From assembly GCA_015231175.1 (NCBI GenBank), contig JADGBZ010000031.1, positions 1 to 38,574 of the forward strand: a stretch of 38,574 bases of DNA, written 5' to 3'. The notes beneath the pieces are model-generated. The model was not told the DNA's origin. It saw only the letters and a list, made by a program, of their open reading frames with translations, and did no database searches. This document shows positions 13,653-38,574 of this stretch, in pieces. The translations under genes and the position numbers were made by a program. How positions within the stretch are numbered: position 1 is the first letter of the stretch; each line of letters starts with the position of its first letter. The DNA comes from Magnetococcales bacterium (GTDB lineage Bacteria > Pseudomonadota > Magnetococcia > Magnetococcales > DC0425bin3).

Positions 13653-13758
13653 GTCGGCCCCCGTCAGGGATAGATGCGCGTCATCTCCAGGAAACAACAG
13701 TGTCCGGCGGGAAGAGGTGATTTTTCCCCGGCAAAGGGTGTCGCTGGAGACAAAATGC

Positions 13759-14196
13759 TCAGGACTGCTCCTCGATGCGCAAAACGTCCGGAGGCAGGCC
13801 CCGAAAGACCACCTTGTCCCGATCTCCAGCATAAGGCCCCTGTTTGACCTCGATCATCTCAAGGGGTTCCAACACCTGGAACCCGTGTCCCCCACCCGTC
13901 AGCAACAAAACATCTCCGGTTTCCAGAATATAACTTTTAAAATATTCCTGCTCTCCGTTATAAAAATCGACCCGCAGCCGCCCCTTGCGAATAAACAGAA
14001 CCTCCTGGGTGTAATTGACCTCGCGCGGGTGACGATTGTGGAAGTGGGGTTTGATGATTCTTCCTTCCGGATGCTTCATGAATGCCAGTTGTTGGGAAAA
14101 ATCGTCGGGAGTAAAAAAGGAGACCCCCTCCCGGTCATAATGATAGCGAACGATGATTCCGTACAGGATTGTTTCATCGCGTATTTCGATGACCAT
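13759..14196 (-). CDS. cupin-fold protein
   Basis: A 145-residue protein with a cupin metal site: H51 and H53 in PHFHNRHP, E65 in the QEVLFIRKGRL strand, and H104 in GGGHGFQVL. The G-D-V-L-L-L-T turn before H104 is the second cupin motif. It could be a sugar-modifying isomerase or epimerase, or a small binding protein; the sequence does not decide. It sits in the operon between the GT2 gene (18 bases upstream) and the methyltransferase (106 bases downstream). An AAGGGA site precedes the ATG at 14196. Confidence 0.75.
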   Translation of the reverse strand: MVIEIRDETILYGIIVRYHYDREGVSFFTPDDFSQQLAFMKHPEGRIIKPHFHNRHPREVNYTQEVLFIRKGRLRVDFYNGEQEYFKSYILETGDVLLLTGGGHGFQVLEPLEMIEVKQGPYAGDRDKVVFRGLPPDVLRIEEQS

Positions 14197-14214
14197 GCTT
14201 TCATGTCCCTTTTT

Positions 14215-14961
14215 TTATTTGTGTTTCCTTGGCAATCCGGGAATGCCGGTCCAGCACAGGTAGAGCATGCGCAAATATTTTACCCCACGACGGAAAAATC
14301 CCCACAGATTGGTTGCGGTTTTGGATTCGCCGAACTGCCGATTGCCAAATGAATAGGGAATCTCTTCGATGCGGTATTCCCGATGCACCAACTGATGGAC
14401 CATGAAGATAAAATACTCGCCATAATCACCTTCCAGGGTGAAATGGGAAAAACACTCCCTTTTCAGGACAAGATAACCGCTGGTGATATCCTTGACCGGC
14501 AGACGGGTCAACCAGCCACTGAACCGGGAAAGAAACTGGCTCAGAACCCTTTGCAGTTCGTATTGTCCCGAGCGGGTATCTGCCCCGCCGGGAATGAAGC
14601 GCGAGGCGATGACACAATCCGATCGGCCTTCCAGCAGAGGCCGCAGCAGGGAGGAGACCAACTCGGGCGGGTGGGCCAGATCACAATCCATCCAGCCAAC
14701 GTACTCTCCACTGGCTTCGCGAATACCCCGATTGATGGCGCTGGTCAGCCCTCGTTCGCCTTGCCGCCGTACTACCCGCACACGGCTGTCTTTTTCCCGA
14801 CTGATGGTTTCGGCGAGTTGCCAGGTCATATCCGGCGAATCATCGTCCACGACGATGAGTTCATACTCCACGCCACGCAAGGCCTTGCCGAGGCGTTCCA
14901 CCAGGGGGCCGATGTTTTCCGCCTCGTTGTAGGTGGGCAAAATCATGGAAAGCGTCGTCAC
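14215..14961 (-). CDS. glycosyltransferase family 2, DPM1-like
   Basis: A 248-residue GT2 enzyme. MILPTYNEAENIG (6-18), the VVDDDSPD nucleotide-binding motif (37-44) and the metal-binding DCD at 92-94 are clear, and the layout resembles dolichyl or polyprenyl phosphate mannosyl/glucosyl transferases. No C-terminal membrane pair is visible, so it is a short, soluble or peripheral form. I chose the GTG at 14961 because AAGGAG lies 6 bases upstream, directly after the stop of the WecA-like gene; ATGs at 14967 and 14982 overlap that ribosome site. It probably makes a lipid-linked sugar or adds a sugar to the repeat unit. Confidence 0.87.
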   Translation of the reverse strand: MTTLSMILPTYNEAENIGPLVERLGKALRGVEYELIVVDDDSPDMTWQLAETISREKDSRVRVVRRQGERGLTSAINRGIREASGEYVGWMDCDLAHPPELVSSLLRPLLEGRSDCVIASRFIPGGADTRSGQYELQRVLSQFLSRFSGWLTRLPVKDITSGYLVLKRECFSHFTLEGDYGEYFIFMVHQLVHREYRIEEIPYSFGNRQFGESKTATNLWGFFRRGVKYLRMLYLCWTGIPGLPRKHK

Positions 14962-14974
14962 GATCATCTCCTTT

Positions 14975-16021
14975 TTACGCATCCTCGTTTTGCAAGGTGC
15001 GTCCACCCAAGCCATCGATGAGGATTGCCAGGGTGAAATACAAGACGCCCCAGGCCAGAAACATTTTTGCCGCAGTTTCCGGGGTGGCATGAAACCGCAT
15101 ATACAGGGCGGAAAGGCCGGAACCAAGCATGAGCCCATATTCCCATAACACCGTGCGTCGATGTCCCCATCCCATGCGCACCAGTTTCTGGTAGTAGTGC
15201 GTGCGATGCGCCCGCCAGACTTTTTTCCTCTGAAAAATGCGTCGAAACATGGTCAGCGTGGCATCGACGATGAAGGGGGAGAACACCAAAAAGGGCACCC
15301 AAAAGGGAAAAATGGCATCCCGTATTCCCCAGAAAGAGAAGGTGGCCACCAAAAATCCCATGGGCACGGAACCAACATCCCCCATGAAGATGCGCGCCGG
15401 GGGGAAATTGGCGGTCAGAAAACCAAGATTGGCCGCAGCGATCAGGAGCGCGGCGCCGGCAAAATGCGGGTGACCGGCAAAGTAACCGAAAGCGGCAAAA
15501 AAAAGAAACCCGAACGCCCCCATGCCGCCAGCAAAGCCGTCCATGCCATCCATGAAATTGTACAGGTTGAGCATCCAGACAAAACTGACAGCCGAGAGTA
15601 TCATACCCCCACCGTGCAATGGCACGGGATGAAAACCGGGAAGGACGATCGCTGCGACGGAATATTCACCCATGGCCAGAAAAAACAGGGCGATACCAGT
15701 GTGCAGAAAAAAACGCACGGAGGGGGCAATTTCACGGCGGTCATTCCACAGGGAGACAACGACACAGGCCATCCAGGCTGAAACGATGTACTCCCAACCG
15801 TGCGGGCGGTGGATGGTGTCCAGCATGAGCAAAAGAGGCCAGGAGACGAGCAAACCACCCAGAATCGCCAAACCGCCGTTGCGCGGTGTCGGACGGGAGT
15901 GAAGAGAGCGATGGTTCGGATGATCCAGGATGAACCAGATGGAATCGGGCCGGCTGAGACGCCGAGCAAGGAGCGCCGCAACCAGAAAGGCAACCAGAGC
16001 CAGGGGCAGGATGGCGATCAA
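14975..16021 (-). CDS. WecA/WbpL-like polyprenyl-phosphate sugar-1-phosphate transferase
   Basis: A 348-residue membrane enzyme of the MraY/WecA family with about 10 spans. Family motifs are visible: HPNHRSLHSRPTPRNGG (34-50), NFMDGMDG (155-162), FMGDVGS (212-218) and HRTHYYQKL (272-280). It transfers a sugar-1-phosphate from a UDP-sugar to undecaprenyl phosphate and so starts a polysaccharide repeat unit at the inner membrane. Its pairing with an NAD-dependent epimerase/reductase resembles the WbpL/WbpV arrangement, in which the sugar is a 6-deoxy-HexNAc. The start is a TTG at 16021 with GGAG 8 bases upstream; no ATG fits. The tandem duplication at 16052-16136 lies just upstream. Confidence 0.9.
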   Translation of the reverse strand: MIAILPLALVAFLVAALLARRLSRPDSIWFILDHPNHRSLHSRPTPRNGGLAILGGLLVSWPLLLMLDTIHRPHGWEYIVSAWMACVVVSLWNDRREIAPSVRFFLHTGIALFFLAMGEYSVAAIVLPGFHPVPLHGGGMILSAVSFVWMLNLYNFMDGMDGFAGGMGAFGFLFFAAFGYFAGHPHFAGAALLIAAANLGFLTANFPPARIFMGDVGSVPMGFLVATFSFWGIRDAIFPFWVPFLVFSPFIVDATLTMFRRIFQRKKVWRAHRTHYYQKLVRMGWGHRRTVLWEYGLMLGSGLSALYMRFHATPETAAKMFLAWGVLYFTLAILIDGLGGRTLQNEDA

Positions 16022-16051
16022 GGCCTGCTCCGATTTGGCGTGGCATGGTGG

Positions 16052-16136
16052 TTCATGTTTCGCTCCGGATCGAACGCACGGTCTCTTCCATGTGATTCAT
16101 GTTCCGCTCCGGATCGAACGCACGATCTCTTCCATG
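16052..16136. repeat. 44-base tandem duplication of the 3' end of the epimerase gene
   Basis: Copies at 16052-16092 and 16096-16136 (period 44) differ at 2 of 41 positions. The second holds the last 13 codons and the stop of the epimerase gene; the first is a non-coding duplicate downstream of the stop. It lies within the operon, between the epimerase and WecA-like genes. Confidence 0.85.
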
Positions 16137-17080
16137 GATGCATCCAGGGAGCGCCGGGGCGCAAAGCCCAGCAGATGACGGCTGCGTTGAGCATCGTAGA
16201 GAGAGGAGCCAGCCAGTTTTTCCAGAGCGTCGTGATCGAAAATAAACCGTTTTTTTCTCCAGCGTCCGATCCCATCCCCGATGGAGGCCAAGCCGGCCAG
16301 CACAAACATGGGAACGTACCAATTGGGAACCGGTTTGCCCAGGGCATGGAGAATCCAGAGATAAATTTGCCGGGTCGCATAAGCCCGCCCATCGGCCAGA
16401 GTCAACTCCTGACGATGGGCGGCAGGGTGCCGGGCAGAGAGCAGAGCCGCTTCCGCCACATCGTCCACATGGATCATGGAGCGGTGGTTGTTGCCCGGAG
16501 GCCAGGGAGGAAACCGCCCCTTGTCGATGGCCAGAACCATGCGGGTCAGATTGCCTTTGCCGCCGGGTCCGTAGACCATCGTTGGCCGCAGGATGACGCG
16601 GTGAGCAATCCCCTCGGCAGCCAGAACCGCTCTTTCGGCCTGGAGTTTGGCCTGCCCGTAGGGGGTCGTTGGGGCCGGCTCCCGGCTCTCGGCAAGGGGG
16701 ATCTCTCCCCCCTCTCCCAAAGCTTTGACACTGCTGAAAAAAACAAACCCATGCACCTGTTCCTGCATGGCCAGATGCAAAATCTTTTGTGTACCATCAA
16801 CGTGGATGCGGTGGTGGGATCCTCCAGCATCACCCCAATCGGAGACCGCATGGGCCTTGCCGGCCAAGTGGAACACGGTGTGTACGTTCTGGCAAAGTTT
16901 CCCGGGAAGTTGCCCCTGTTCCAGATCACCCACCAGCGCCTCATCCCAGGGACCGGGACGGGGATGTCGCAACAAGGCCCGTACCCGAATGCCCTCCGCC
17001 TGCAAAAGCGCACAGAGACGTTGGCCGATAAACCCTCCGGCCCCTGTCACCAGGACCAGATCGTGACGGGCCGGTCTCAT
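16097..17080 (-). CDS. NAD-dependent epimerase/dehydratase (WbpV-like sugar nucleotide reductase)
   Basis: A 327-residue extended short-chain dehydrogenase. The NAD(P) motif GAGGFIG is at 13-19, with the catalytic set S116/S117 in FFSSVKALGE and Y141-x3-K145 in PYGQAKLQAE. By resemblance to WbpV and QuiNAc-pathway reductases it could reduce a 4-keto UDP-sugar to the precursor used by the WecA/WbpL-like enzyme encoded next. UDP-glucose 4-epimerase-like activity is the alternative. The ATG at 17080 overlaps the stop of the preceding GT4 gene as ATGA, which suggests translational coupling. Its 3' end is duplicated downstream (16052-16092). Confidence 0.88.
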   Translation of the reverse strand: MRPARHDLVLVTGAGGFIGQRLCALLQAEGIRVRALLRHPRPGPWDEALVGDLEQGQLPGKLCQNVHTVFHLAGKAHAVSDWGDAGGSHHRIHVDGTQKILHLAMQEQVHGFVFFSSVKALGEGGEIPLAESREPAPTTPYGQAKLQAERAVLAAEGIAHRVILRPTMVYGPGGKGNLTRMVLAIDKGRFPPWPPGNNHRSMIHVDDVAEAALLSARHPAAHRQELTLADGRAYATRQIYLWILHALGKPVPNWYVPMFVLAGLASIGDGIGRWRKKRFIFDHDALEKLAGSSLYDAQRSRHLLGFAPRRSLDASMEEIVRSIRSGT

Positions 17081-18237
17081 GAGCAACGCCCCATGCCCAT
17101 GGTCGCGTACAGAGCCAAGGTTTGCTGCACAATGATTTTTTGGGCAAAATGTTCTTCGACCCGTTGTCGTCCTGAGCGCCCCATGCGTCGACGCAACTCT
17201 CCATCCAGACCAAGACGTTCGATGGCTATGGCAAGGGCTGCGGCGTCGGCACGGGGAATCAGCAGACCATTCACCCCATCCTGGACGACATGACGACACC
17301 CGGGAACGTCAGCTGCCACGATCGCCCGTCCACAGGCTGCCGCCTCCAGGAGAGATTTGGGGAACCCCTCCCGGTAGGAAGGCAACACCGCCACATGGGT
17401 GTTGGCCAGAAGATCCGGGATATCTTCCCGTTCTCCAAGCCACTCGACTGTTCCAGCGGCATGCCAGGCCCGCAACTCCGCCTCGGGCACGGTCGACGGG
17501 TTGTGTGGATCCGGGCTGCCCACCAGCAAAAACCGCCAGGCAGGATGGTTTTTTTTGAGCCGGGCAGCCGCTGCCACAAACTCGGCCACCCCCTTGTCCC
17601 ATAACATGCGTGAGACCATGGTCACCACCGGGTCACCCGGCGGTTCCATCTGGACCTGAAAACGCTCAGGATCGACGCCGGATCCGGGAATGATCGTGAG
17701 TCTTTCCACAGGAAGGGAGGAGACCTCAGCCAAGGTTGCTGCGTCGTCCAGATTCTGCGCCACCACCCGCACCCTGGGGTGGCCAAGCAAGCGGGGCAGT
17801 GCCAGCCGCAAAATTTTTCGGTAACGGATGGCGGAGGGCGTATCCGTGGTAAAGGCATACCCCAGTCCGGCGAAGGCGTTCACCACGCGGGGAACACCGG
17901 CAAGGATGGCCGCCAAGGTGCCCAACAGGACAGGTTTGATGGCGACATGGTGGACCAGGTCCGGGCGTTCCCGCAGGTAGAGGGTGATCAACTGAGTGAG
18001 GGAGCGCAAGCCGTTCAGGGGGTTCAACCCCTCCCGTTTCATGGCGAGTGGGGCCAGCCGAAACCCCTCCTGGATAATTTTTTCTCCATGGCGGTCAACC
18101 CGCACCGCAACCACAACGTCACACCCCTGATTCCGCACCGCACGCGCCAACGGCAACCGATGGGACCAGAAATACCAATCTTCCGTGACCAGAAACAAAA
18201 TCTTGGGTCGACGGGACTTGCGGACGCCTGAGATCAT
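17077..18237 (-). CDS. glycosyltransferase family 4 (PglA-like)
   Basis: A 386-residue GT-B enzyme. The C-terminal domain has the retaining E-x7-E motif (E290 to E298 in REGFPKSLLEA) and the phosphate-binding R210-K215 segment SRMLWDKG. The N-terminal domain has VVNAFAGLGYAFT, a stretch typical of PglA and other enzymes that add the second sugar to a lipid-linked HexNAc. No membrane span is present. It overlaps both neighbours by ATGA (start at 18237 with the polymerase stop, stop at 17077 with the epimerase start), so the three are translated together. Confidence 0.9.
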   Translation of the reverse strand: MISGVRKSRRPKILFLVTEDWYFWSHRLPLARAVRNQGCDVVVAVRVDRHGEKIIQEGFRLAPLAMKREGLNPLNGLRSLTQLITLYLRERPDLVHHVAIKPVLLGTLAAILAGVPRVVNAFAGLGYAFTTDTPSAIRYRKILRLALPRLLGHPRVRVVAQNLDDAATLAEVSSLPVERLTIIPGSGVDPERFQVQMEPPGDPVVTMVSRMLWDKGVAEFVAAAARLKKNHPAWRFLLVGSPDPHNPSTVPEAELRAWHAAGTVEWLGEREDIPDLLANTHVAVLPSYREGFPKSLLEAAACGRAIVAADVPGCRHVVQDGVNGLLIPRADAAALAIAIERLGLDGELRRRMGRSGRQRVEEHFAQKIIVQQTLALYATMGMGRCS

Positions 18238-19439
18238 ACCACCTCACGTGATGCAAGGGGCCGAACCTGTTGCTGCCAACAGGACATACACCACTCCCAG
18301 TAGGCTCGCATTCGATCCATCCGTATCTTGATTTTGTACATTTCAAAATAATAAAAGAAGTACACCAAATAAAAAGTTACAAAAGGATACCTGTATCTTG
18401 CTGCCGTTCCAAAATTATCTGTTACAAGCCCATAAATACACATACCTGTGAAAAAATATAAATTTAAAAACCACATATTCCCACGAATATGTTTGTTTTT
18501 AATGGAATGATAAACTGAAAAGATTATAAATATATCAATAAAAATGTTTTCAATAGACTGAAAAAACTGAAATGCGTTGGCCGCTTCCCATGGAAACGGC
18601 TTCATGATCATGTATGGCGCGGAAAGAAGACCGATGACAACAATGTCCTGGTAACTTTCGATGGGAATGTACCCTTCTAGACTTTCATTGTGGTTTTCAA
18701 AATACATCCATCGCCGATATCGATTTATCTCATCAATCGTCATGAGGTCAGCAAAGTGGGATGCGGCAAAAAAAACGAACCCGACCATCAGGACGCGATA
18801 AAATATATTCAACCGGGGCGAAGTTATCATGAAAAACATGACAGCTACTGCAAAAATAAGGAAATTTTGAAACTTAAGCGCCGCCAATGGAAAATGAGCC
18901 AAACCTGCCAGTATGTAACGCTTCTTTTGAAAAAAATACACACCAAGAACCATGCAAATCATGACGATACCATCACGCAATGCCATGGACGAATAAAACA
19001 TCAAACTTGGGTAAAGCAAATAGAACCATTGTGCACGACCAATCAAAATTTTCTTTTTGACGAGAAAAACATAAAGAAGAACATAATACATTACATTAAC
19101 CATGGAAGCCGATTCAACGCTCCTGATGCTTGGAATCGGAAAAATGGCAAACAGAAGGCCCGGAAGGTGCTTGATGTCAAAATACAACTCAGATGTGACC
19201 CCCGTGCGATAGTACATGGCCGCCATGGAATAATGAGTTTGATCAGAAAACTTTGAAAGAATAAACTCCTGGCTTGTCAAAAAAACCAGGCCAAAATGCA
19301 AGAAAAGAATGGATGCAACAACGTTGTTGGCACGTGCCAAATACATGGCAAGAAAAAGCCACATCAACATGACCGGCAGGTTGGAAAGTTCCAGGGCAAT
19401 ATCGACAGGCCCGAGGCCGCTCAGGACAAATGCATCCAT
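18234..19439 (-). CDS. EpsG/Wzy-like membrane protein, probable polysaccharide polymerase
   Basis: A 401-residue protein with about 9-10 hydrophobic spans rich in F, I, L, M and Y. A large loop between spans holds NRYRRWMYFENHNES. The layout resembles EpsG and Wzy-type polymerases, which join repeat units on the periplasmic side; such proteins share little sequence, so this rests on topology and context. The gene is strikingly AT-rich compared with both neighbours, which is common for polymerase genes moved between strains. The ATG at 19439 follows an AGGGGATGAC site and lies one base from the stop of the methyltransferase gene. The stop overlaps the next start as ATGA. Confidence 0.7.
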   Translation of the reverse strand: MDAFVLSGLGPVDIALELSNLPVMLMWLFLAMYLARANNVVASILFLHFGLVFLTSQEFILSKFSDQTHYSMAAMYYRTGVTSELYFDIKHLPGLLFAIFPIPSIRSVESASMVNVMYYVLLYVFLVKKKILIGRAQWFYLLYPSLMFYSSMALRDGIVMICMVLGVYFFQKKRYILAGLAHFPLAALKFQNFLIFAVAVMFFMITSPRLNIFYRVLMVGFVFFAASHFADLMTIDEINRYRRWMYFENHNESLEGYIPIESYQDIVVIGLLSAPYMIMKPFPWEAANAFQFFQSIENIFIDIFIIFSVYHSIKNKHIRGNMWFLNLYFFTGMCIYGLVTDNFGTAARYRYPFVTFYLVYFFYYFEMYKIKIRMDRMRAYWEWCMSCWQQQVRPLASREVV

Positions 19440-19440
19440 G

Positions 19441-20232
19441 TCATCCCCTTGCGATGGGCGGGGAGACGGCTGTGACAATCAGGTGACCCGCCAGGGGCGT
19501 CGTCCAGGGAAGCTGGGAGATTTTATCGTCCAAACCTTCCAGGCGGGCGGCTGCCTTGGCTCCGGTCCCTTCATGCAGCCGATAGATAAACCTCAGCAAT
19601 CCAAACATGCGTCCCTGACAGGTCACATCCTGGATGCCAAGCTCCTTGAGGATCGCCCTGACCTCGCCGGGAGTTGTGAATTCACAGTGAATGGGCGGCA
19701 GTGTGCCGCGCAGGGATGCCAGCATATGGCGCAGGCCATTGTAGAGGTAAAACCCGTCCAGGGCATAACGGTTGACCATTGTGAAAAACAGCCTGCCGCC
19801 AGGACGTGTCACCCGGATCGCCTCCCGCAGGGCCAGCATCATCTCCGGGCGCTGAAAATACCGGTACACCTCGAAAGCGGTGACCAGGTCGAAATGGTGG
19901 TCGGGAAAGGGCAAATGCGTAGCCGTCCCATCGAGGATCTGGATGTCGGGGTTTTGGCGTTGGGCCATGACGCGCATGTTTTCAGCCGGCTCTACGCCAA
20001 CGACAGCAAACCCGCGTTGCCTGAAAAGGGCAACCTGCTCGCCGGTACCACATCCCACATCCAGGATCCGGGCGTCGGAAGGAAGGATTCCAAGCTGTTG
20101 ATCCAGGAGTTCATCAATTTTTTTTCGCCCATAGGTGAAGGCCGTCAGTCGGTAATCACTCCGCATGGTGCGGTACCAGGCGTCGAATCGATCAGCAGTG
20201 GCATGGTGTTCGGAAATGCTGCGCTGCTCCAT
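19441..20232 (-). CDS. class I SAM-dependent methyltransferase
   Basis: A 263-residue methyltransferase of the Methyltransf_11 type. Motif I is ILDVGCGTG (56-64), followed by VVGVEPAENM for the acidic strand end and ATHLPFPDHHFDLVTAFEVY. ALREAIRVTRPGGRLFFTM marks the later helix and strand. The substrate is unknown; within this operon O- or N-methylation of a sugar is the natural guess. The ATG at 20232 is 13 bases after the stop of the deacetylase gene; the longer open frame would lie inside that gene. Confidence 0.85.
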   Translation of the reverse strand: MEQRSISEHHATADRFDAWYRTMRSDYRLTAFTYGRKKIDELLDQQLGILPSDARILDVGCGTGEQVALFRQRGFAVVGVEPAENMRVMAQRQNPDIQILDGTATHLPFPDHHFDLVTAFEVYRYFQRPEMMLALREAIRVTRPGGRLFFTMVNRYALDGFYLYNGLRHMLASLRGTLPPIHCEFTTPGEVRAILKELGIQDVTCQGRMFGLLRFIYRLHEGTGAKAAARLEGLDDKISQLPWTTPLAGHLIVTAVSPPIARG

Positions 20233-20245
20233 GGTAGGCTTTCTC

Positions 20246-21196
20246 TCAAAGGTGTGCTTCGTGGCCGATGTGATGGTCTCCCATGGGGAGAATATCGAGA
20301 ATGCCCTGTTCCCGCATATCTCCTGCCCGGGCCAAAACGGCTTCCAGGACAGCGAATTGCCGATCGGTATCATGGGTGAAATTGGACGGATGGAACCAGA
20401 GGTGAAAAACCCGCCGCTGGCGGGCGGCCCGTTCCAATCCGGAGCATGCCATGGCGATCAGGTTGCCGGGAGGCACCAGGCGCCGCAGACCGTTACGGCC
20501 CAGCAACAGCATGCTGTCGGGAAGGTTGATCAACCCCTGGGATGTACGCAAGGGTACGACCGTCGGCATGGGAAATCGAAAGATGAAAGTCAACAGGTTC
20601 AAAAGGCGCCGGACCGCCCGGGAGGGAAAATTGTCATACCAGCGGGGCGTTTGACCCCGAAAAACCTGGATGCCCATGTCACGCAGCAGATCCAGATGGC
20701 CGACGCGATTGCGGGGAAACACAAACGTCCGGCAGGGTATGGCGTGTTTTTTGTGCCATACCCGCACCGCTTCCAGATCCGCCCTGGCCGCATCGGGGTG
20801 TGCCAGATCGAAGGGAATATGAAAAAACGAGTGGCTGCCAATCTCCTGGGTTGGTTGCACAGCTTGAATGATCGGCAGCAAATCGCTCCCATACCAGGCA
20901 GGGTCCATCTCCCTGGGTAACTGAAACAGCCAATCCCGGGTCTCTCCTGCCACGACTGGGCGGGGCAGATCGGGATGGGGCAACTCCTGCCAGGGAGCCG
21001 GTCGATCCAAAAGCAGATGACCCACCATCGCCCATGTGGCACGGACCTGGTACTTTTCAAACAGCCGCGCCAGACGGGTGACGATATCCCGCTCGGCGCG
21101 GACAGCGGCCAGCTCCTCTGCCCGATAGGGAACGTCACACCGTCCCCAGGCCAGTTCAAGGTCGATGGATATGGTCAAGGCGCCAAGGGCACACAT
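20246..21196 (-). CDS. polysaccharide deacetylase family protein (NodB-like)
   Basis: A 316-residue NodB-fold protein. TISIDLELAWG near the N-terminus gives the catalytic aspartate (D12) and an acidic partner, and HSFFH gives the metal-binding H122 and H126. RTFVFPRN and VFHLWFHPSNF correspond to later motifs. Enzymes of this fold remove N-acetyl groups from sugars or act on related C-N bonds. It has no signal peptide or membrane span, so it should work in the cytoplasm, perhaps on a lipid-linked intermediate. The ATG at 21196 lies 4 bases after the asnB stop; a TTG eight codons earlier would overlap asnB. Confidence 0.83.
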   Translation of the reverse strand: MCALGALTISIDLELAWGRCDVPYRAEELAAVRAERDIVTRLARLFEKYQVRATWAMVGHLLLDRPAPWQELPHPDLPRPVVAGETRDWLFQLPREMDPAWYGSDLLPIIQAVQPTQEIGSHSFFHIPFDLAHPDAARADLEAVRVWHKKHAIPCRTFVFPRNRVGHLDLLRDMGIQVFRGQTPRWYDNFPSRAVRRLLNLLTFIFRFPMPTVVPLRTSQGLINLPDSMLLLGRNGLRRLVPPGNLIAMACSGLERAARQRRVFHLWFHPSNFTHDTDRQFAVLEAVLARAGDMREQGILDILPMGDHHIGHEAHL

Positions 21197-21200
21197 GGTG

Positions 21201-23159
21201 TCACTTGGCCTCTCTGACAAAACCGTCGATCCAGCGCCGCTTCCAGGCCTGGGCCATGAGAACTCCCCATATCGAGTACTGCCAATTGCGCTCTCCCGAG
21301 AGATGTTCCCGCCAGCGTTGGCGGATGGGGAGTGGGTTCAGCAAACCATCGTCCTGCATCCGTTGGGGATCCAGGAGATCTTCGGCCCAGTCACGCAGCG
21401 GCCCCCGCAACCAGCCATCGATGGGCACACCGAAGCCCATCTTGGGTCGTTCGATGAGGTGAGGGGGAACATACCGGTAAAGAACCTGCCGCAACAACCA
21501 CTTACTCTGACCATTGCGAATTTTCCACTCCCCGGGCAATCGCCAGGCAAACTCGACCACCCGATGATCCAGCAAGGGCACACGCGCCTCCAGGGCGACC
21601 GCCATGCTGGCCCGATCCACCTTGGCGAGGATATCATCCGGGAGATAGGTCAGTATATCCAAAAGTTGCATGCGTTCGGTATCGTCCACCAGGCCGGCCA
21701 GTCCGGAATGGGTGTAGGGCAGGGGATCGGCCTCTCTCTCTCCCTGGACCAACTCCTGATGCAAGGGCCAGAAGGAGAGCAGTTGCGGGTAGATCGAAGC
21801 CACCCCGTCCAGGGCGAGTATCTCGGCCAATTTGTGCAGTTTGTCCCCCAACAGGGTGGGACGAGAAGCGGCGGGTATCAGCCGGGTCAAACGGTCCCAT
21901 GCCGACGGCGGCAGGGAGCAGAGACCACGGGCCACCACCCGACGCAGGGAAGAGGGCAAAAATTGAAAGATACGCCGCAATCGGGCCGCCATCAGGTAGC
22001 GGGTGTACCCGGCAAAGAGTTCATCGCCCCCATCACCGGAGAGGGCTACTGTCACCTGGCGTCGGGTCAAGGCCGAGACCAGATAGGTGGGAATCTGGGA
22101 GGCATCGGAAAATGGCTCGTCGTACAGCTCCGGCAAGCCGGGCACCAGATCCAGGGCATGGGCGGGTTCGACATAGAGTTCGGTGTGGTCAGTACCCAGA
22201 TGCCTGGCCACTTCCCGGGCAAAGGGGGCTTCGTTGTGGCCCTGTTCGTGAAAACCGATGGAGAAGGTTTTGATGGGCTGTTGGCTCTGTGCCTGCATCA
22301 GAGCCACCACGGTGGAGCTGTCCACGCCCCCTGACAAAAAGGCGCCCAGCGGCACGTCGGCCACCATGCGTCGCCGGACGGCATCACGCAACAACAGGTC
22401 GAGTTCAGCGACGGCCTCTGTCGCGCTCCCCCCCCTGGGGGTCCGGCAGGAGGTGGCAATGATTTTCTGCAAATCCCAGAAGGTGTGTTCCTTGACCTCG
22501 CCCTGCCGGTTGATCTCGCAATACCGGCCCGGACGCAGTTTGCCGATCCCCTGGTAGATGGAAGCAGGCGCGGGAACGTAAGAATAGGCCATGAAGGCGG
22601 CCATGGCCCGGCGGTCGATTCTGGGTTCCCACTCCGGATGCGGAAAAAAGCTCTTGGGCTGCGAGCCAAAAAAGATGGTCCGGCCCAACCGACCCCAGTA
22701 GAGGGGTTTGATCCCCAGGCGGTCCCGAACCAGGGTCAGACGTTGTTCGGTGATATCCCAAAAAGCGAAGGCGAACATGCCGATGCAACGGGAGATGGTT
22801 TGCTCTACACCCCATGCCTCACAGGCTTCCAACAGCACCTCGGTATCGGAGTGACCACGCAACGACCGGCCCTGGGCAACCAGATCCGCCCGAATCTCCT
22901 GGAAATTAAAAACTTCCCCGTTGTAGGCGATGACGGAACGACCACTGGCGGAGACCATGGGCTGATGTCCCAGGGGGGAAAGATCGACGATGGAGAGCCG
23001 TCGATGTCCCAAGGCCATGCCGGAGTGGGGATCGACCCAGACGCCACCGTCATCGGGACCGCGCGGGGTCAGGGTGTCGGTCATGCGCGTCACGATATTC
23101 ACCTGGGCGGCCTGGCTGGTGGCTGCCGTCAAATCCCAGAAACCGGTTATTCCACACAC
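21201..23159 (-). CDS. asnB: asparagine synthase (glutamine-hydrolysing), polysaccharide-cluster type
   Basis: A 652-residue class II amidotransferase. Removal of the initiator exposes the catalytic cysteine C2 in the CGITGF motif, and the glutaminase domain runs to about residue 200 (RGPDDGG, LGHRRLSIVDLS, YNGEVFN). The synthetase domain begins with the ATP-binding SGGVDSS at 276-282. AsnB paralogues in O-antigen and capsule loci are thought to amidate sugar acids rather than make asparagine; that is inference here. The start is a GTG at 23159, fixed by the need for Cys at position 2, with AGGAG 10 bases upstream. It overlaps the end of the preceding GT4 gene by 13 bases. The longer open frame of 782 codons is an artefact. 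Confidence 0.92.
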   Translation of the reverse strand: MCGITGFWDLTAATSQAAQVNIVTRMTDTLTPRGPDDGGVWVDPHSGMALGHRRLSIVDLSPLGHQPMVSASGRSVIAYNGEVFNFQEIRADLVAQGRSLRGHSDTEVLLEACEAWGVEQTISRCIGMFAFAFWDITEQRLTLVRDRLGIKPLYWGRLGRTIFFGSQPKSFFPHPEWEPRIDRRAMAAFMAYSYVPAPASIYQGIGKLRPGRYCEINRQGEVKEHTFWDLQKIIATSCRTPRGGSATEAVAELDLLLRDAVRRRMVADVPLGAFLSGGVDSSTVVALMQAQSQQPIKTFSIGFHEQGHNEAPFAREVARHLGTDHTELYVEPAHALDLVPGLPELYDEPFSDASQIPTYLVSALTRRQVTVALSGDGGDELFAGYTRYLMAARLRRIFQFLPSSLRRVVARGLCSLPPSAWDRLTRLIPAASRPTLLGDKLHKLAEILALDGVASIYPQLLSFWPLHQELVQGEREADPLPYTHSGLAGLVDDTERMQLLDILTYLPDDILAKVDRASMAVALEARVPLLDHRVVEFAWRLPGEWKIRNGQSKWLLRQVLYRYVPPHLIERPKMGFGVPIDGWLRGPLRDWAEDLLDPQRMQDDGLLNPLPIRQRWREHLSGERNWQYSIWGVLMAQAWKRRWIDGFVREAK

Positions 23160-24313
23160 GTTGTTCCATGCTCCTGGGCTGGCGCGGGAAGCGACAGGAT
23201 TTCCCGATAAAAGGCCTGATATTGATGCACCACCCGTTCGAGGGCATAGTCGGCCAGAATGCGGGCCCTGGCATGGTGTCCCAGCGCCTGGCGCTCCTCG
23301 TCTGGAAGATCCAGAAGGGCTACCAGGGCATCCGCCAACGCTTCCGGATTTTGCGAGGGGACCGTGCGCCCCGTGGCGCCGATCAGCAGGGTTGAATCCC
23401 CCACGTCCGTCGCCACACAGGGTACGCCGCAGGCCATCGCTTCGCCAAGGGTGTTGGAGAATCCCTCCCCAATCGACGAGGAAACGGCCACATCCAGGGC
23501 CGCGTTGATCCGGGCGATATCGTTGCGCTTGCCGACTAAATGCAGACACCCTGTCAAGCCGAGGGCCGGGATGCGATCCGCAAAAAACGGGTTGTCAGGC
23601 AGGACATCGGCGCCGACCAGCACAAAGTGGACATCCGGTCGGCGCCGATGGACGCAGACGGCAGCCTCCAAAAAGGTGTCGTGTCCTTTCATGGGGTTGA
23701 AGCGGGCCACGATACCCACCAGCGGGGTTGCAGGCGACAATCCCAGTGCGGCGCGCAGCCATGTGCGGGCTTCGGGGTCGGGTCGATATTCCGTGGTGTC
23801 GAAACCGTTGGGGATCCGCACCCAACGTTTGGGGCGATACCCCAGACTTTCGTGATAGCTCTTGCCGGCCAGGGAGTTGACCAGGATGGCGTCAGGCTGC
23901 GACGAGAGCCTGGCCAGGATTCGTTTGGTCCAATCCAGCTTGCGGCCACCGCTCTGCATGGTGGAACAACGCAGGCTCCAGACAATGCGCGGCGCCCCTG
24001 CCCATCTCCCCACCAGCAGACCCAGAAGATCCGAGTGATACATCCATGTTTGCAGGATATCCGGTTGCAGGGTGCGCAACAGCCGGACCAGGCGGAGCAA
24101 GCCCAAAGGGTTGGGTATGCCCTGTCGCATCTCCAGGGTGTGAATGGTCAGGTTCAACTCGTCACGGATTTGGGCGCCGATCGGACCCAAGTCGGTCATG
24201 GAGATGACGGTGTGGTGATACTCTCCATGGTCCGATCCGCGCAAAAATTTGTGCAGCATGCGCTCCGCGCCGCCGGTGCCCAGGCCGGTGATGAGGTGTA
24301 CGATGCGGATCAT
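23147..24313 (-). CDS. glycosyltransferase family 4
   Basis: A 388-residue GT-B enzyme. The N-terminus MIRIVHLITGLGTGGAERML has the GG-x-E glycine loop (14-17). The C-terminal domain has R204 and K209 (ARFNPMKG) and the E-x7-E pair E283/E291 in GEGFSNTLGEAMACG. It resembles the GT4 gene just upstream in layout and several stretches, so the two may be old duplicates with different acceptors. Start and upstream stop overlap as ATGA at 24310-24313, and its 3' end overlaps asnB, so all three are translationally linked. Confidence 0.92.
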   Translation of the reverse strand: MIRIVHLITGLGTGGAERMLHKFLRGSDHGEYHHTVISMTDLGPIGAQIRDELNLTIHTLEMRQGIPNPLGLLRLVRLLRTLQPDILQTWMYHSDLLGLLVGRWAGAPRIVWSLRCSTMQSGGRKLDWTKRILARLSSQPDAILVNSLAGKSYHESLGYRPKRWVRIPNGFDTTEYRPDPEARTWLRAALGLSPATPLVGIVARFNPMKGHDTFLEAAVCVHRRRPDVHFVLVGADVLPDNPFFADRIPALGLTGCLHLVGKRNDIARINAALDVAVSSSIGEGFSNTLGEAMACGVPCVATDVGDSTLLIGATGRTVPSQNPEALADALVALLDLPDEERQALGHHARARILADYALERVVHQYQAFYREILSLPAPAQEHGTTCVE

Positions 24314-25440
24314 GCCACGGATTCCAAGGCGCGCAAGGTGTTGGCCACCAGATTCGACGTGCTGAACCGGGTGAGGATACGTTCCCGGGCACGTTGCCGC
24401 AAGGCGTCCGCTTCCGTATGCAGGCAGCCCAACTGGTTCAGGATATGTTCCGCCATGGCCGCCGGGTCTTTGGGAGGTACGCAGGAGCCGGTCTCCCCGA
24501 TGATGGATGCGGCATCACCGACATGCGTTGCGACGAAGGGGAGCCCGCAAGCCATGCCCTCGCCGATCACTCCGGAAAATCCCTCACCAAAGGCTGATGA
24601 GGAGACACCGAGATCCAGGGCGTTATACACTGCGGCCATGTCATCGCGGGGACCGGCCCAGATCAGGTGATCGGCAAGATCCAGGTCAATGGCCAGGCGG
24701 TTGAGCCGCTCTCGCACGGCGGGTTCGCCATCACCCACACAAACGAAGCGAACCGAGGGGATCTGCCGGGCCACAAGCGCAGCAGCCCGCAGAAAGGTGA
24801 CGTGATCTTTCATCGGGTCAAGGCGGGCAGCAATGCCGACCAGGAGTTGGTCGGATTCGATCTGCCAGGTCTTCCGCAGCCGTTTTCTGGCTTCGGCATC
24901 CGGTCGAAATGTGCCCTCGGCATCGATCCCGTTAGGGACCATGACCGATTTTTCCATGGGATAGCCGCGTTCACAATGGAAGGAGCGTCCCGCCTCGGAG
25001 TTGAAGATGATCCGGTCGGCAAAACGCGAGAGGCGGCAAGTCAGACCAAAAGTCAGTTTGGTGATGGGGTGGTAGTTGTCCAGATCCATATCCGAGGCCC
25101 GTACCCCCCAGACCACGCGGGTGTGGTGCGGGATGACAGGTTTGACCAGAACCGAAAGCAGGTTGGGCTCGACCAGATAACTGTGCAGAATATCCGGCGC
25201 CTCGCGTCTTACCAGTTGCACCAGACGCCACACAAAGCCCCCGAGATCCCAGCGGCTTGTTTTGCCCAGGTCAAAAAGCGGCACTCCGGCCTCCTCCAGG
25301 GTGCGGGAGAAAAAACCACCCGGATAAAAGCAGGCGACAGCGACGTTGTGGCCCCCCTGGTGGAGACCCCGCGCCAGGAGTGTCAGTTGGCGTTCGGCTC
25401 CGCCCCGATTAAGGGATCTGATCAAAAACAGAATTTTCAC
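24310..25440 (-). CDS. glycosyltransferase family 4, first gene of the polysaccharide operon
   Basis: A 376-residue GT-B enzyme. MKILFLIRSLNRGGAERQL carries the glycine loop (13-16). ARLDPMKDH provides R206 and K211, and GEGFSGVIGEGMACG the E286/E294 pair. It transfers a sugar from a nucleotide donor with retention; donor and acceptor are not predictable. The start is a GTG at 25440 with a weak ribosome site. A strong sigma70-like promoter stands 64 bases upstream, so this is the head of the 12-gene operon running down to 12906. Confidence 0.9.
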   Translation of the reverse strand: MKILFLIRSLNRGGAERQLTLLARGLHQGGHNVAVACFYPGGFFSRTLEEAGVPLFDLGKTSRWDLGGFVWRLVQLVRREAPDILHSYLVEPNLLSVLVKPVIPHHTRVVWGVRASDMDLDNYHPITKLTFGLTCRLSRFADRIIFNSEAGRSFHCERGYPMEKSVMVPNGIDAEGTFRPDAEARKRLRKTWQIESDQLLVGIAARLDPMKDHVTFLRAAALVARQIPSVRFVCVGDGEPAVRERLNRLAIDLDLADHLIWAGPRDDMAAVYNALDLGVSSSAFGEGFSGVIGEGMACGLPFVATHVGDAASIIGETGSCVPPKDPAAMAEHILNQLGCLHTEADALRQRARERILTRFSTSNLVANTLRALESVA

Positions 25441-33532: not shown

Positions 33533-36500
33533 TTATTTATCCAGATGGACCCCCTCTTCTTTCGCCCAGGCGCGAAACAACGTCAAACATGCTTCGTAGT
33601 CGTATTGATCGAGGGCCAGTTTGATGGTCTCCAGATTTTTTCGACGCTGGCCGTTCGGCGTCAACGCTGCTATTTCCGTCAACACAACATCCACCGATGC
33701 GTCATAGACGAGGAGTAACGCCACGGCCCTTTGGAACAAGAGAGACAAATCTTCCAGACCGATCTCAACTCCAGGTTGGTCTTCTTTCGAGGTGACAGCC
33801 TCCAGTGGCATCAGCGTGGTCTCGATGGTTGACACAATTCGGGCCAATTCGCTGGCTGTTGTACCGAACATTTTTGGCAGATCCTCCAATCCGTGCTGGA
33901 TTTTCGACTGTTTTTCGATCTGTTCCGCAAGGTTGGCCAATTTTGAAGCCCCGATGGTGGCCGACACCCCCTTCAAGGTATGGGCGATGCGTTCCAATGT
34001 CATGATGTTGCCTGAGGCCAGGCACCGCTCCATCTCCTGACAGGCGCCGCCTTGATTGTGAGCAAACTTGAGCAGAACGTGACGATAAAGCACCGTGTTG
34101 CCGCCGATGTTGCGCAGGCCCTTGGCGATATCTATTCCTGGAATCGGTGGTAGTGGCAACACCGGGGCCATGCTGTGTCCGAAGGGGGGTACAACGGAAG
34201 GTTGGGAAATCAGGCCGGGTCGATGTTCGAGCCATTTGGCCAGGGTTGCATACATCTCCTCCGGGTCAACCGGCTTGGCAATGTGATCGTTCATGCCCGC
34301 TTCCAGGCATTTTTCCCTGTCGCCGGCCATGGCGTTGGCCGTCATGGCGATGATGGGCAACTCGTCGGCGCTCAATTTTTTCCGAATTTGCCGCGTGGCG
34401 GTCAGACCATCCATGACCGGCATTTGCAGATCCATCAAAACGCCGTCAAAATGGTTTTGACTGACCAGATTGACTGCCTCCAAACCATTCTTGGCGATCT
34501 CAACCATGATTCCTGCCTGTTCCAACAACTCCCGGGCCACCTGCTGATTGATTTCGTTGTCCTCCACGAGGAGCAACTTGACCCCTGCCAGATTGGCACG
34601 ATGGATGTTTGAACAACGCATCGCTTGCCGTGCCGGTTCATGGCCAAACGCGATCATGATAACGTCTACCATGGAGGTGATATTGACCGGCTTCATCAAG
34701 AAACCGTCCAGGAGGTTCTTCTCCTCCTCCGGTGCGGCGATATACTCCTGACCATAGGCAGTCACCATGATGATGATCGGGTTTTTTTTCAGAGACATCC
34801 CCTTTTTGATGTGGCGCGCCACTTCCAGGCCGTTCAAGCCGGGCATCTTCCAATCCAGAAGGACCAGGTCAAAAGGAGAACCTTTTTCATTGGCTGCCAA
34901 TAGCTCATCGATCGCCCTTGCGCCACTTTCGGCACAAACCGGTTGGTAGGCCAGAGACGCCAACTGTTCGGAAATGATTTGCCGGGCGCCAGCGTTGTCA
35001 TCCACCACCAAAATGTGCAACCCGCGAATGCTTTCCGCGGGCATGAGAAGTTCCGGCGCCAAACCACCAACCTTGCCGAAACGGGCCGTAAATGTGAAAC
35101 GGCTGCCACGCCCAGGGTCGTTTGTAACACCAATTTGCCCCCCCATCATCTCGACCAGGCGTTTGCTGATCGCCAGTCCCAAACCGGTGCCGCCATACTT
35201 CCGGGTTATGGAGGTATCTCCCTGGGAAAATTCCTGGAACAGCTTGCTCATTTGCTCCGGCGTCATGCCAATACCGGTATCGCGAACCGTAAAGCGAAGA
35301 AATACATCATCTTGTGTCTCTTCCAACGCTTCGGTGATGATGGAAACCTCCCCTTTCTCCGTGAATTTAATGGCGTTACCGACCAGGTTGGTCAAAATTT
35401 GCCCCAGGCGATGAGAATCCCCGCGCAGATTGTGGGGGACGTTTCTCCTGGTATCCAGCAATAGTTCCAGACCTTTTTCATGGCTTTTGACACTCAGAAT
35501 GGCCACCACGCCACCCAAAACCTCATCCAGGGTGAATCCGGCATCTTCCATGGTGAGCTTGCCCGCCTCGATCTTGGAAAAGTCCAGGATATCGTTGATC
35601 AGTTGCAACAAAACATTGGCGCTGAGACTGACCTTGGAAAGATAATCTCTCTGTTGTCCGGTCAACTCGGTCTGGAGGCAGAGATGGGTCAAGCCAATGA
35701 CGCCGTTCATCGGCGTGCGAATTTCGTGACTCATCGAGGCGAGAAACTCTGATTTGGCCTGATTGGCTTTTTCCGCCACGAGCCTGGCGCTCTCCAACTC
35801 GGCATTTTTATCTTGCAGCACCTGGTCCAGGCGTTTGCGTTCACTCATGTCGCGCACGGCGGCAAACACCCCCTGCAATTTCCGATTACGGTCATAGATG
35901 GTGGTCGCATGCAGGGACACCGGTGTTTTTTTGCCATCCCTGGCCCACACGGTGAGTTCGTAGTCAATGACCTTCTTTTCGCTCAGGACCAGCAGGATGC
36001 CGGCCTCGGCCCGCTCCGGGTCATTGAAGTGATTCCGAAAGGGTGAACCAATCAACTCGTCCCGGGAACAATTGGTGATCACCTCCATTTGCTTGTTGGC
36101 GTCCGTGATGATGCCAGACGGATCGGTGATGATCAGCGCGTCGATACTCGATTCAATGAGCGAGCGTGTGTAAAACTGCTGATCCCTGACACGCTGATCA
36201 AGCTTCTTTTGCTCGGCCTCGACCTGTTTGCGTGCGGTGTTATCCGTGCCGATCAGCAGGTAGCCTATGATATCGTTGTCATCGTCGCGCAAGGCGGTGA
36301 CCGACACGACTGCCGGAAAGCGACTGCCATCCTTGCGGATGTAGGTCAGCTCGTAGATATCTTCGATACCACGCGAGGCCTTGAACACCAGGGCCTCGAA
36401 TCCTGGGGTGATCTGCGTGGCAAGTTCATCGCTCAGCGCCTTGGCGCGGGCGACCACCTCTTGCGGATCGGAAATATCGGCGGGGGTGATTTTGTTCACC

Positions 36501-36649
36501 ACCTCCACGGCTGTATAGCCCAACATGCGCTCGGCGCCGACATTGAATATTTGAATGACACCCTCTGCGTCGGTTGCAATACTCGAAAAGTTGGGGCTGT
36601 TGAAAATGGCGTTTTGCAGGGCGCCAATTTCACAAAGTTTATTAGGCAT
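33533..36649 (-). CDS. hybrid sensor histidine kinase (PAS-PAS-HisKA-HATPase-REC-REC-Hpt)
   Basis: A 1038-residue phosphorelay protein. Two PAS domains (about 10-140 and 155-275) come first, then a coiled linker, and the dimerisation helix with phospho-histidine H308 in SHEIRTPMNG. The ATPase domain has NLVGNAIKF (near 425), DTGIG (near 457) and GTGLGL (near 487). Receiver 1 has D599 and K653, receiver 2 has D740 and K792, and the Hpt domain has H890 in IAHTLKGVSATIGAS. No membrane span is visible, so sensing is probably cytoplasmic through PAS ligands. No separate response regulator lies nearby, so its output is unknown. The ATG at 36649 has AGAGG upstream; a GTG 14 codons earlier is weaker. 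A perfect TATAAT (minus strand, 36742-36747) may be its -10, but no good -35 stands before it. Confidence 0.95.
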   Translation of the reverse strand: MPNKLCEIGALQNAIFNSPNFSSIATDAEGVIQIFNVGAERMLGYTAVEVVNKITPADISDPQEVVARAKALSDELATQITPGFEALVFKASRGIEDIYELTYIRKDGSRFPAVVSVTALRDDDNDIIGYLLIGTDNTARKQVEAEQKKLDQRVRDQQFYTRSLIESSIDALIITDPSGIITDANKQMEVITNCSRDELIGSPFRNHFNDPERAEAGILLVLSEKKVIDYELTVWARDGKKTPVSLHATTIYDRNRKLQGVFAAVRDMSERKRLDQVLQDKNAELESARLVAEKANQAKSEFLASMSHEIRTPMNGVIGLTHLCLQTELTGQQRDYLSKVSLSANVLLQLINDILDFSKIEAGKLTMEDAGFTLDEVLGGVVAILSVKSHEKGLELLLDTRRNVPHNLRGDSHRLGQILTNLVGNAIKFTEKGEVSIITEALEETQDDVFLRFTVRDTGIGMTPEQMSKLFQEFSQGDTSITRKYGGTGLGLAISKRLVEMMGGQIGVTNDPGRGSRFTFTARFGKVGGLAPELLMPAESIRGLHILVVDDNAGARQIISEQLASLAYQPVCAESGARAIDELLAANEKGSPFDLVLLDWKMPGLNGLEVARHIKKGMSLKKNPIIIMVTAYGQEYIAAPEEEKNLLDGFLMKPVNITSMVDVIMIAFGHEPARQAMRCSNIHRANLAGVKLLLVEDNEINQQVARELLEQAGIMVEIAKNGLEAVNLVSQNHFDGVLMDLQMPVMDGLTATRQIRKKLSADELPIIAMTANAMAGDREKCLEAGMNDHIAKPVDPEEMYATLAKWLEHRPGLISQPSVVPPFGHSMAPVLPLPPIPGIDIAKGLRNIGGNTVLYRHVLLKFAHNQGGACQEMERCLASGNIMTLERIAHTLKGVSATIGASKLANLAEQIEKQSKIQHGLEDLPKMFGTTASELARIVSTIETTLMPLEAVTSKEDQPGVEIGLEDLSLLFQRAVALLLVYDASVDVVLTEIAALTPNGQRRKNLETIKLALDQYDYEACLTLFRAWAKEEGVHLDK

Positions 36650-36844
36650 GATCAAACCTCTGAAAAACGCTGCCGTGTCGCATATCGCCACAGGGGTTTG
36701 ACGATATAAGATACCAGTAAAAACAATAAACTCCTGACTGGATTATACGCAGACTCCGACGTTTTTGTTTATTCTTTTGGGGTATGATTTAAACGACCAG
36801 CTTTTTTTATTCAGATTATTTAAGAGGAAAATATAACTTTTTTT

Positions 36845-37195: not shown

Positions 37196-38422
37196 ATGTC
37201 ATTTCAAATCAAGAGCAACCGTTTTGCCAGAGTTTCGGCTACAGGTCTGATATGTGGCCTGTTGGTTTTGACTTTGCCTTTGGGGGGGTGTGTCTCCAGC
37301 AATGTCCTCCTGAAGCAGGAGAGCGGATATTCCAAGCTCGCCCCTTTGGTCGTTGTTGTGGAGAATGAAGACAGGCTGGGCATGAAGGGCCGTCTGGAGC
37401 ACCTGCTGCTCTCGCAAGGTTTCAATGTGGTCTCCGACCTTGGTGAGCACAAACGCCTGGTGGTCACCGAGGAGCTTCCAGCCACGGCGGTGGTCGAGCC
37501 GGGGAAGGATGTGCAACAGGTCAAACGGATGACCACCGATCTGCAAAACAGGTATCCGGTCAACTATGCGTTCCGGTTCGGCTATCAGACCGACCAGCAG
37601 GGAGATGTCATAAAATTGACTGGTTCCATTGTGGATCTGCGCAGTGGTGAGTTTGTTTTCTCTTATGAATTTCAGGATGGCTTGGTGACACCGTTCAACA
37701 CGTACATCCTCGGAGAAGAGTTGGCCAAGACTTTTCCTGATGGCAAGCCGAGGCAGGTTGAGGATGGCGTTGGGGCCATCCACTCCGATGCGCATGGCAA
37801 CACATCCGCCGTCACTCCGACCGAGACCTCGGGAACACCGGGGGGTTCTGAAGAGAAAGGGGTTGCTGCTCCGGCGAAGGATTCGTCTGCCAGGAAGGAT
37901 GTCAAGTCGGGCAAGGTGGAGTTGGTCAAGGAGATTGCATGGCAGACCAATCTGCTGGCGCTGAATACTTCCGTGGAGGCATCTCGCCATGCCACCCCGG
38001 GTGATCCGATGGTAGCTGTAGCCGCAGAGATCAAAAATCTGGCGGATCGCAGCATGCTGGGTGTCCTGGAGTTGGGCACCCTCATGCACACCCCGTTGGC
38101 CGCCGAGTACCGCGCCGAGGAGTTGCTGGCCCAGTTGACGCCCGAACTGGAAACGGCAACCAGCCATTTGCTCTTTGCGCAAGGTAAGAACCCTGGCGGG
38201 GCAGGGGGTGTTGCCGGCGCCAAGGGGTCCGCCGGCAAGGGCGTTGCCCAGGCGGGTCAGCCCGAACAGGGGCAAAACAGGATGGGCGAGTTCGCCATGG
38301 CTCCAGCCTATCCTGTGCCGACGCCAAACCCACGGCGGTGGGATGCCGGGGGCGTGCCGACTCAATTGGCCATGGTGGCCCCGGTCCCACAACCCAAGCC
38401 CAAGGCCATGACGACCCCCTGA
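37196..38422 (+). CDS. lipoprotein with an embedded chemoreceptor-tip-like segment
   Basis: A 408-residue protein that I do not recognise as a whole. Residues 1-31 are a signal peptide ending in the lipobox LPLGG-C32, so it should be lipidated outside the cytoplasm. Residues about 45-170 look like a compact alpha/beta domain (LVVVVENEDRLGMKG, AFRFGYQ, LTGSIVDLRSGEFVFSYEF), perhaps of the kind found in small envelope lipoproteins. A Ser/Thr/Pro/Gly linker follows. Residues 240-287 closely resemble the signalling tip of methyl-accepting chemotaxis proteins: IAWQTNLLALNTSVEAS matches IAxQTNxLALNAAxEAA, then E278-I-K-N-L-A-D-R-S. The tail from about 330 is rich in G, A, P and Q. The ATG at 37196 has GAGGG 9 bases upstream. 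It is divergent from the histidine kinase and followed by a strong terminator. Confidence 0.8.
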   Translation: MSFQIKSNRFARVSATGLICGLLVLTLPLGGCVSSNVLLKQESGYSKLAPLVVVVENEDRLGMKGRLEHLLLSQGFNVVSDLGEHKRLVVTEELPATAVVEPGKDVQQVKRMTTDLQNRYPVNYAFRFGYQTDQQGDVIKLTGSIVDLRSGEFVFSYEFQDGLVTPFNTYILGEELAKTFPDGKPRQVEDGVGAIHSDAHGNTSAVTPTETSGTPGGSEEKGVAAPAKDSSARKDVKSGKVELVKEIAWQTNLLALNTSVEASRHATPGDPMVAVAAEIKNLADRSMLGVLELGTLMHTPLAAEYRAEELLAQLTPELETATSHLLFAQGKNPGGAGGVAGAKGSAGKGVAQAGQPEQGQNRMGEFAMAPAYPVPTPNPRRWDAGGVPTQLAMVAPVPQPKPKAMTTP

Positions 38423-38463
38423 CCTTTGTTGCGCCACAGTCGTTGTGGCGAGACAGCCTGTCG

Positions 38464-38519
38464 CCCAAACCACCCCTTCGCCTGGAGAGATCCAATCCGC
38501 AGTGGTGGTTTGGGTTTTT
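38464..38519 (+). terminator. intrinsic terminator of the lipoprotein gene
   Basis: CCCAAACCACC (38464-38474) pairs perfectly with GGTGGTTTGGG (38504-38514) and is followed by five T (38515-38519). The loop is 29 bases. A smaller hairpin, CGCCACA/TGTGGCG (38432-38438 with 38444-38450), stands just after the stop codon. Confidence 0.75.
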
Positions 38520-38540: not shown

Positions 38541-38574
38541 GGTCCAGGAGGAAGGGCTGTGCCCTTCCTCCTGG
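38541..38574. repeat. GC-rich hairpin repeat, member 3, cut by the window end
   Basis: CCAGGAGGAAGGGC (38544-38557) pairs perfectly over 14 bases with GCCCTTCCTCCTGG (38561-38574) around a 3-base loop. The flanking GGTCCAGG start and the GGAGGAAGGG core are shared with members at 7907-7976 and 32151-32205. The element probably continues past the window. Confidence 0.6.

Follow-up and report, generated by a model that had tools for sequence, protein, structure and literature searches.

The gene at the end of this locus raises the question of why a predicted lipoprotein should carry the hairpin tip of a methyl-accepting chemotaxis protein (MCP). The chemoreceptor tip is otherwise known inside the cell, where it serves to control swimming. 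It is among the most conserved segments of bacterial proteins and answers to two demands, self-assembly and contact with CheA/CheW. The gene occupies positions 37196-38419 (plus strand) of the window, the 38,574-nucleotide stretch of DNA that was analysed, and encodes a predicted envelope lipoprotein of 408 residues. We consider it reasonably probable that this envelope lipoprotein captured a chemoreceptor tip, uses it for oligomerisation and is decoupled from CheA/CheW; we infer both the location and the oligomerisation.

The original prediction placed a tip homologue inside a reading frame with lipobox Cys32. MCPsignal (PF00015) is the sole Pfam match of the protein in hmmscan, with residues 241-297 aligned to profile positions 39-95 at 46.3 bits (E 5.4e-12; curated cut-off 34.6 bits), which bears that placement out. 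The orthologue from a second species (G002) matches profile positions 39-167 (58.9 bits, E 7e-16), and E. coli Tsr (1qu7) could be aligned, with no gap, to a profile built from the two orthologous tips (E 6.9e-11). Ala/Leu-rich receptor-tip helices can score with other coiled coils, but the E-values of the two Pfam matches (5e-12 and 7e-16) and an ungapped match some 85 residues long, spanning the QTNLLALN and LADRS signatures, make a chance or convergent coiled coil with no receptor homology barely conceivable. By these sequence comparisons, the segment is a real, conserved chemoreceptor-tip homologue. A search of the same genome (G000) with MCPsignal returned 28 matching stretches, mostly ordinary receptors, with the lipoprotein segment at 47.6 bits; some 20 of the others exceed the cut-off, so donor genes are at hand.

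The lipoprotein shares with the MCP signalling domain (PF00015; Tsr tip, 1qu7) the hairpin core IA-x-QTN-x-LALN-x2-VEA-x-R, the closing motif E-[IV]-[KR]-x-L-A-x-R-S, about 40 further residues of the C-helix and the equivalents of Tsr E385 and R388. It differs in having neither HAMP nor methylation helices, in an N-helix of only about 26 residues, in altered equivalents of E391, R394 and F396, and in the position of the module behind a signal peptide and lipobox. The full-length four-helix bundle with equal helices and a methylation region is absent; the match begins at profile position 39, after a low-complexity linker. Short frames of the order also gave further receptor-like matches (L059-L067); those inspected were ordinary receptors, fragments of receptors or soluble proteins with a tip, and had no lipobox architecture. 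One of them, L065 on the minus strand of contig C54 of G000, has a tip of divergent sequence, IAEQTNVLALNARIVSAR, and the frame seen lacks any obvious transmembrane segment; from its sequence it is possibly a divergent cytoplasmic receptor-like protein.

The homologous region is longer than first described. A match to the tip was correctly recognised at bases 37916-38056 (residues 241-287) and described as ungapped from E261 to S286; ungapped homology in fact reaches approximately residue 326. Against a consensus of 46 distinct receptor segments, residues 287-326 score 38 without gaps, where shuffled sequences have a mean of -26 and all 20,000 fall short of 38, a count that overstates the odds because shuffling loses helical periodicity. 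Homology over these residues is also indicated by the orthologue, whose Pfam match extends to profile position 167. Together these results delimit a captured module of approximately residues 239-328, composed of a short N-helix, a turn and a longer C-helix. The N-helix (residues 239-264, positions 37910-37987) is assigned from the PF00015 match, the ungapped alignment to Tsr and a low-confidence model helix; the degenerate turn HATPGD (residues 265-270, positions 37988-38005) from comparison with receptor segments; and the C-helix (residues 271-328, positions 38006-38179), which includes AEIKNLADRS and a receptor-like LTPEL, from the consensus score and the orthologue. A full-length AlphaFold model has helices at 239-264, 271-295 and 300-328 at low confidence (pLDDT 39), and Foldseek with this model was uninformative.

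Has the captured tip been maintained or is it decaying? Among 100 relatives we found one full-length orthologue, in G002, a member of the same genus (G002:C82:17351-18550; 63% identity, same start MSFQ). Signal peptide, lipobox and tip are all present in it. Between the two proteins, identity is 58% in the signal peptide, 67% in the globular domain, 24% in the linker, 83% in the tip, 75% in the post-tip region and 41% in the tail. The tip has the lowest dN of all parts (0.11; the globular domain has 0.20, tail and linker 0.57-0.62), and dN/dS is 0.06-0.09 for the tip plus post-tip region and for the tip. The dN contrast is safer than these ratios because synonymous sites are near saturation, and the estimates derive from one sequence pair. 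Comparison of the two coding sequences shows the MCP-derived module (residues 239-328) to be under strong purifying selection. A decaying or neutral gene fusion, which the original prediction had entertained, would agree with the small number of species that carry the gene and with the degenerate turn; as the tip is the slowest-evolving part of the protein and the frame is intact in both species, we give decay only a very slim chance. Absence of the gene from G001, the third member of the genus, is little informative because that genome is only 76% complete.

The residues kept and lost in the tip bear on what selection acts upon. Ungapped alignment to 1qu7 upholds the predicted correspondence of W249, L253, L256, E261 and R264 to Tsr F373, I377, L380, E385 and R388. 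The lipoprotein keeps the trimer contacts E385 and R388 unchanged, and the positions of F373, I377 and L380 are still hydrophobic. The G-E-x-G-R-G-F turn is, as had been noted, degenerate. In 38 aligned receptor segments of these genomes (a set that includes two misaligned fragments), the E391 position is Glu or Asp in 34, the R394 position Lys in 36 and the F396 position Phe in 36. The equivalents in the two lipoproteins are T/I, D/H and M/M, those of the window protein (T, D and M) lying in turn residues 265-270 and at M272. E391 and R394 of Tsr participate in CheA/CheW coupling. In trimers of a related transducer, the equivalents of E385 and R388 join neighbouring dimers through an ion lock and that of F396 stacks (PMC8144572). 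The 25 residues either side of Tsr E391 have been described as a trimerisation/signalling domain (PMC5364426), and the N-terminal side of the module retains about the same span as the 25 residues before E391. The pattern of kept and lost residues fits a hairpin selected for packing or oligomerisation and not for kinase control.

The lipoprotein layout suggests the compartment. Residues 1-32 (positions 37196-37291) comprise a signal peptide and the lipobox LGGC, with lipidation predicted at C32; both were assigned by inspection of the sequences, the lipobox being LGAC in the orthologue and in a relative without the tip (G003). An n-region containing Lys/Arg and a hydrophobic stretch are present in both orthologues, and a hydrophobic stretch is present in the G003 relative. 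Export is predicted from the signal peptide and lipobox, which both orthologues conserve and the tip-less relative also has. The protein would be lipidated at C32, and Val at +2 would direct it to the outer membrane, its probable location; the +2-residue sorting rule for lipoproteins is known from enterobacteria. Were the protein wholly or partly cytoplasmic, the tip could join or disturb chemosensory arrays, which are to be expected in a genome with some 20 receptor-like matches over the cut-off. Against this stand the export signals just described and the changed equivalents of E391 and R394, and we allow it a slim chance.

The remainder of the protein comprises three parts. A globular alpha/beta domain (residues 33-182, positions 37292-37741) is followed by a G/A/S/T-rich low-complexity linker (residues 183-238, positions 37742-37909), to whose residues 191-235 the 24% identity refers and which is unstructured in the prediction. 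The module is followed by a Pro/Gly/Ala-rich tail (residues 329-408, positions 38180-38419) ending in a conserved PTQLAMVAP-x-P-x-PKP; its identity was taken over residues 341-408 and it is near-identical between orthologues at 388-402. The globular domain has no Pfam match, no convincing PDB sequence match and no match in plasmids, and the full protein has none in viral contigs. An AlphaFold model of the domain from three sequences has pLDDT 64 overall, with the core near 80. Its best Foldseek match is PelC (E 3.4e-4, probability 1.00, TM about 0.4 on this pLDDT-64 model), followed by the CadC periplasmic domain, LptE, GNA1162, LpoB and CsgG. With TM-scores of only about 0.4, the likeness to PelC, LpoB and CsgG is a fold-level lead. 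The outer-membrane lipoproteins PelC, GNA1162, LpoB and CsgG share with our protein a lipobox and possibly an alpha/beta fold, PelC being closest to the model; they differ in that identity is 10-15% with no sequence family match, and we know of no member with a receptor hairpin. No pel domains were seen among the window genes scanned.

Searches with the globular domain alone identify the likely history of the fusion. They recover G000, G002 and, weakly (E 1.3e-4), G003, from another genus of the same family; a three-sequence profile finds G003 strongly, but G003 is itself a member of that profile. Nothing convincing was found in the order's other genomes or in a 398-genome sample of the phylum. 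A weak order-level match in G043 is spurious, with in-frame stops and overlying ordinary genes, as is the single contig-search match (L041, Flavobacterium), which lies in an ABC-transporter-permease-like gene on the opposite strand. The G003 lipoprotein (L045:826-1803, minus strand) has its own correctly placed lipobox, LLGAC, and its N-terminal domain aligns along its length at 30% identity; it differs in having no MCP tip and an unrelated C-terminal part without a Pfam family match. A domain with its own lipobox and no tip indicates domain insertion, and on this comparison the lipoprotein probably preceded the tip. The simplest history the sequences offer is that a receptor fragment was inserted into an existing lipoprotein in the ancestor of the genus; the alternative is loss in G003. 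The N-terminal domain may carry exchangeable C-terminal modules.

We propose that the tip, once moved outside the inner membrane and rid of its kinase-coupling loop, would serve as the oligomerisation module of the lipoprotein. The PelC/LpoB-like domain would sit on the membrane, with the flexible linker holding the hairpin away from it. Hairpins of neighbouring copies would pair into antiparallel four-helix dimers, and these perhaps into trimers of dimers through W249, L253, L256 and an E261-R264' ion pair, clustering the lipoprotein into an envelope scaffold. The Pro-rich tail could reach a partner, for which the conserved PTQLAMVAP end is a candidate site. In its full form, a scaffold of trimers of dimers that descends from the chemotaxis array and lies outside the cytoplasm, we rate this proposal a little short of even.

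Oligomerisation is favoured, on sequence grounds, by the MCPsignal match in both orthologues, the lowest dN in the tip, the kept ion-lock residues and the changed loop residues. The PelC-like model of the N-terminal domain may count on the same side: twelve PelC lipoproteins encircle the Pel exporter as a ring (PMC12141448). Other points count against it. The 26-residue N-helix may be too short to hold a dimer stably. The lipoprotein has Met in place of F396, a residue that takes part in stacking in the trimer of the related transducer (PMC8144572), and confidence in the full-length model is low (pLDDT 39). A hairpin without self-association could instead bind a different envelope partner such as a helical protein, the MCP-derived surface acting as a heterotypic docking helix. 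Residues 287-328, the part of the C-helix past the tip, hardly differ between the orthologues although a receptor-specific function cannot apply there, and the tail has its conserved end motif, both of which suit docking. Since the receptor-tip residues that have been kept are those of self-association, docking seems unlikely, though a serious competitor. Capture from an MCP gene with reuse in oligomerisation or as an envelope scaffold, one of the readings first put forward, is favoured by the tip-less relative, the dN contrast and the kept and lost residues.

No precedent for an MCP signalling domain in a lipoprotein was found in the open-access literature searched. Both building blocks are of known kinds, and their union, with the change of compartment, appears new to us; the lipobox-plus-tip architecture is known in two species. 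If the proposal is true, the protein illustrates how a part of the signalling array can be put to new use in the envelope. It would also be a natural copy of the tip, freed of the CheA/CheW demand and still selected, that shows which residues serve assembly alone, a question otherwise addressed by mutagenesis.

The lipoprotein gene diverges from a hybrid histidine kinase gene (33533-36691, minus strand). Downstream lies a probable intrinsic terminator (38463-38515, plus strand), with a 12-bp outer stem followed by TTTTT and a predicted fold of -29 kcal/mol (z -3.9). The contig (C31) then ends in a palindromic dispersed repeat (38541-38574). Two such repeats occur in the 3.8-Mb genome, GGTCCAGGAGGAAGGGCTGTGCCCTTCCTCCTGG, the one at this contig end, at 121 places and GGTTCGGGGCGAAGCCCTGACAAAGGC at 512 (at most 3 mismatches, both strands counted; reversed control 0); the two frequently make up a composite element with 2-3 bases between them, and they are found at several contig ends. 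In G002 the lipoprotein gene is directly followed by, and shares 4 bases with, a gene for a PMT_2-domain membrane glycosyltransferase (L042:16149-17348, minus strand, and L050). The G000 homologue of that gene has its start 121 bases short of a contig end (C42), and C31 and C42 terminate in the two halves of the dispersed repeat, which at other places are separated by 2-3 bases. As halves of one repeat, they suggest that the genus has probably conserved this gene order, lipoprotein then glycosyltransferase; the join is deduced from the contig-end repeats and not from reads. Speculatively, the Ser/Thr-rich linker is a candidate glycosylation target, given the adjoining PMT_2 gene. An antisense open frame of 424 residues covers the whole lipoprotein gene (37199-38473, minus strand); the substitution pattern favours the plus-strand gene and the frame is probably non-coding. 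The contig that encodes the PelC-like lipoprotein also holds a polysaccharide-type cluster (window positions 12906-25440) with several glycosyltransferases, methyltransferases, an epimerase and an asparagine synthase.
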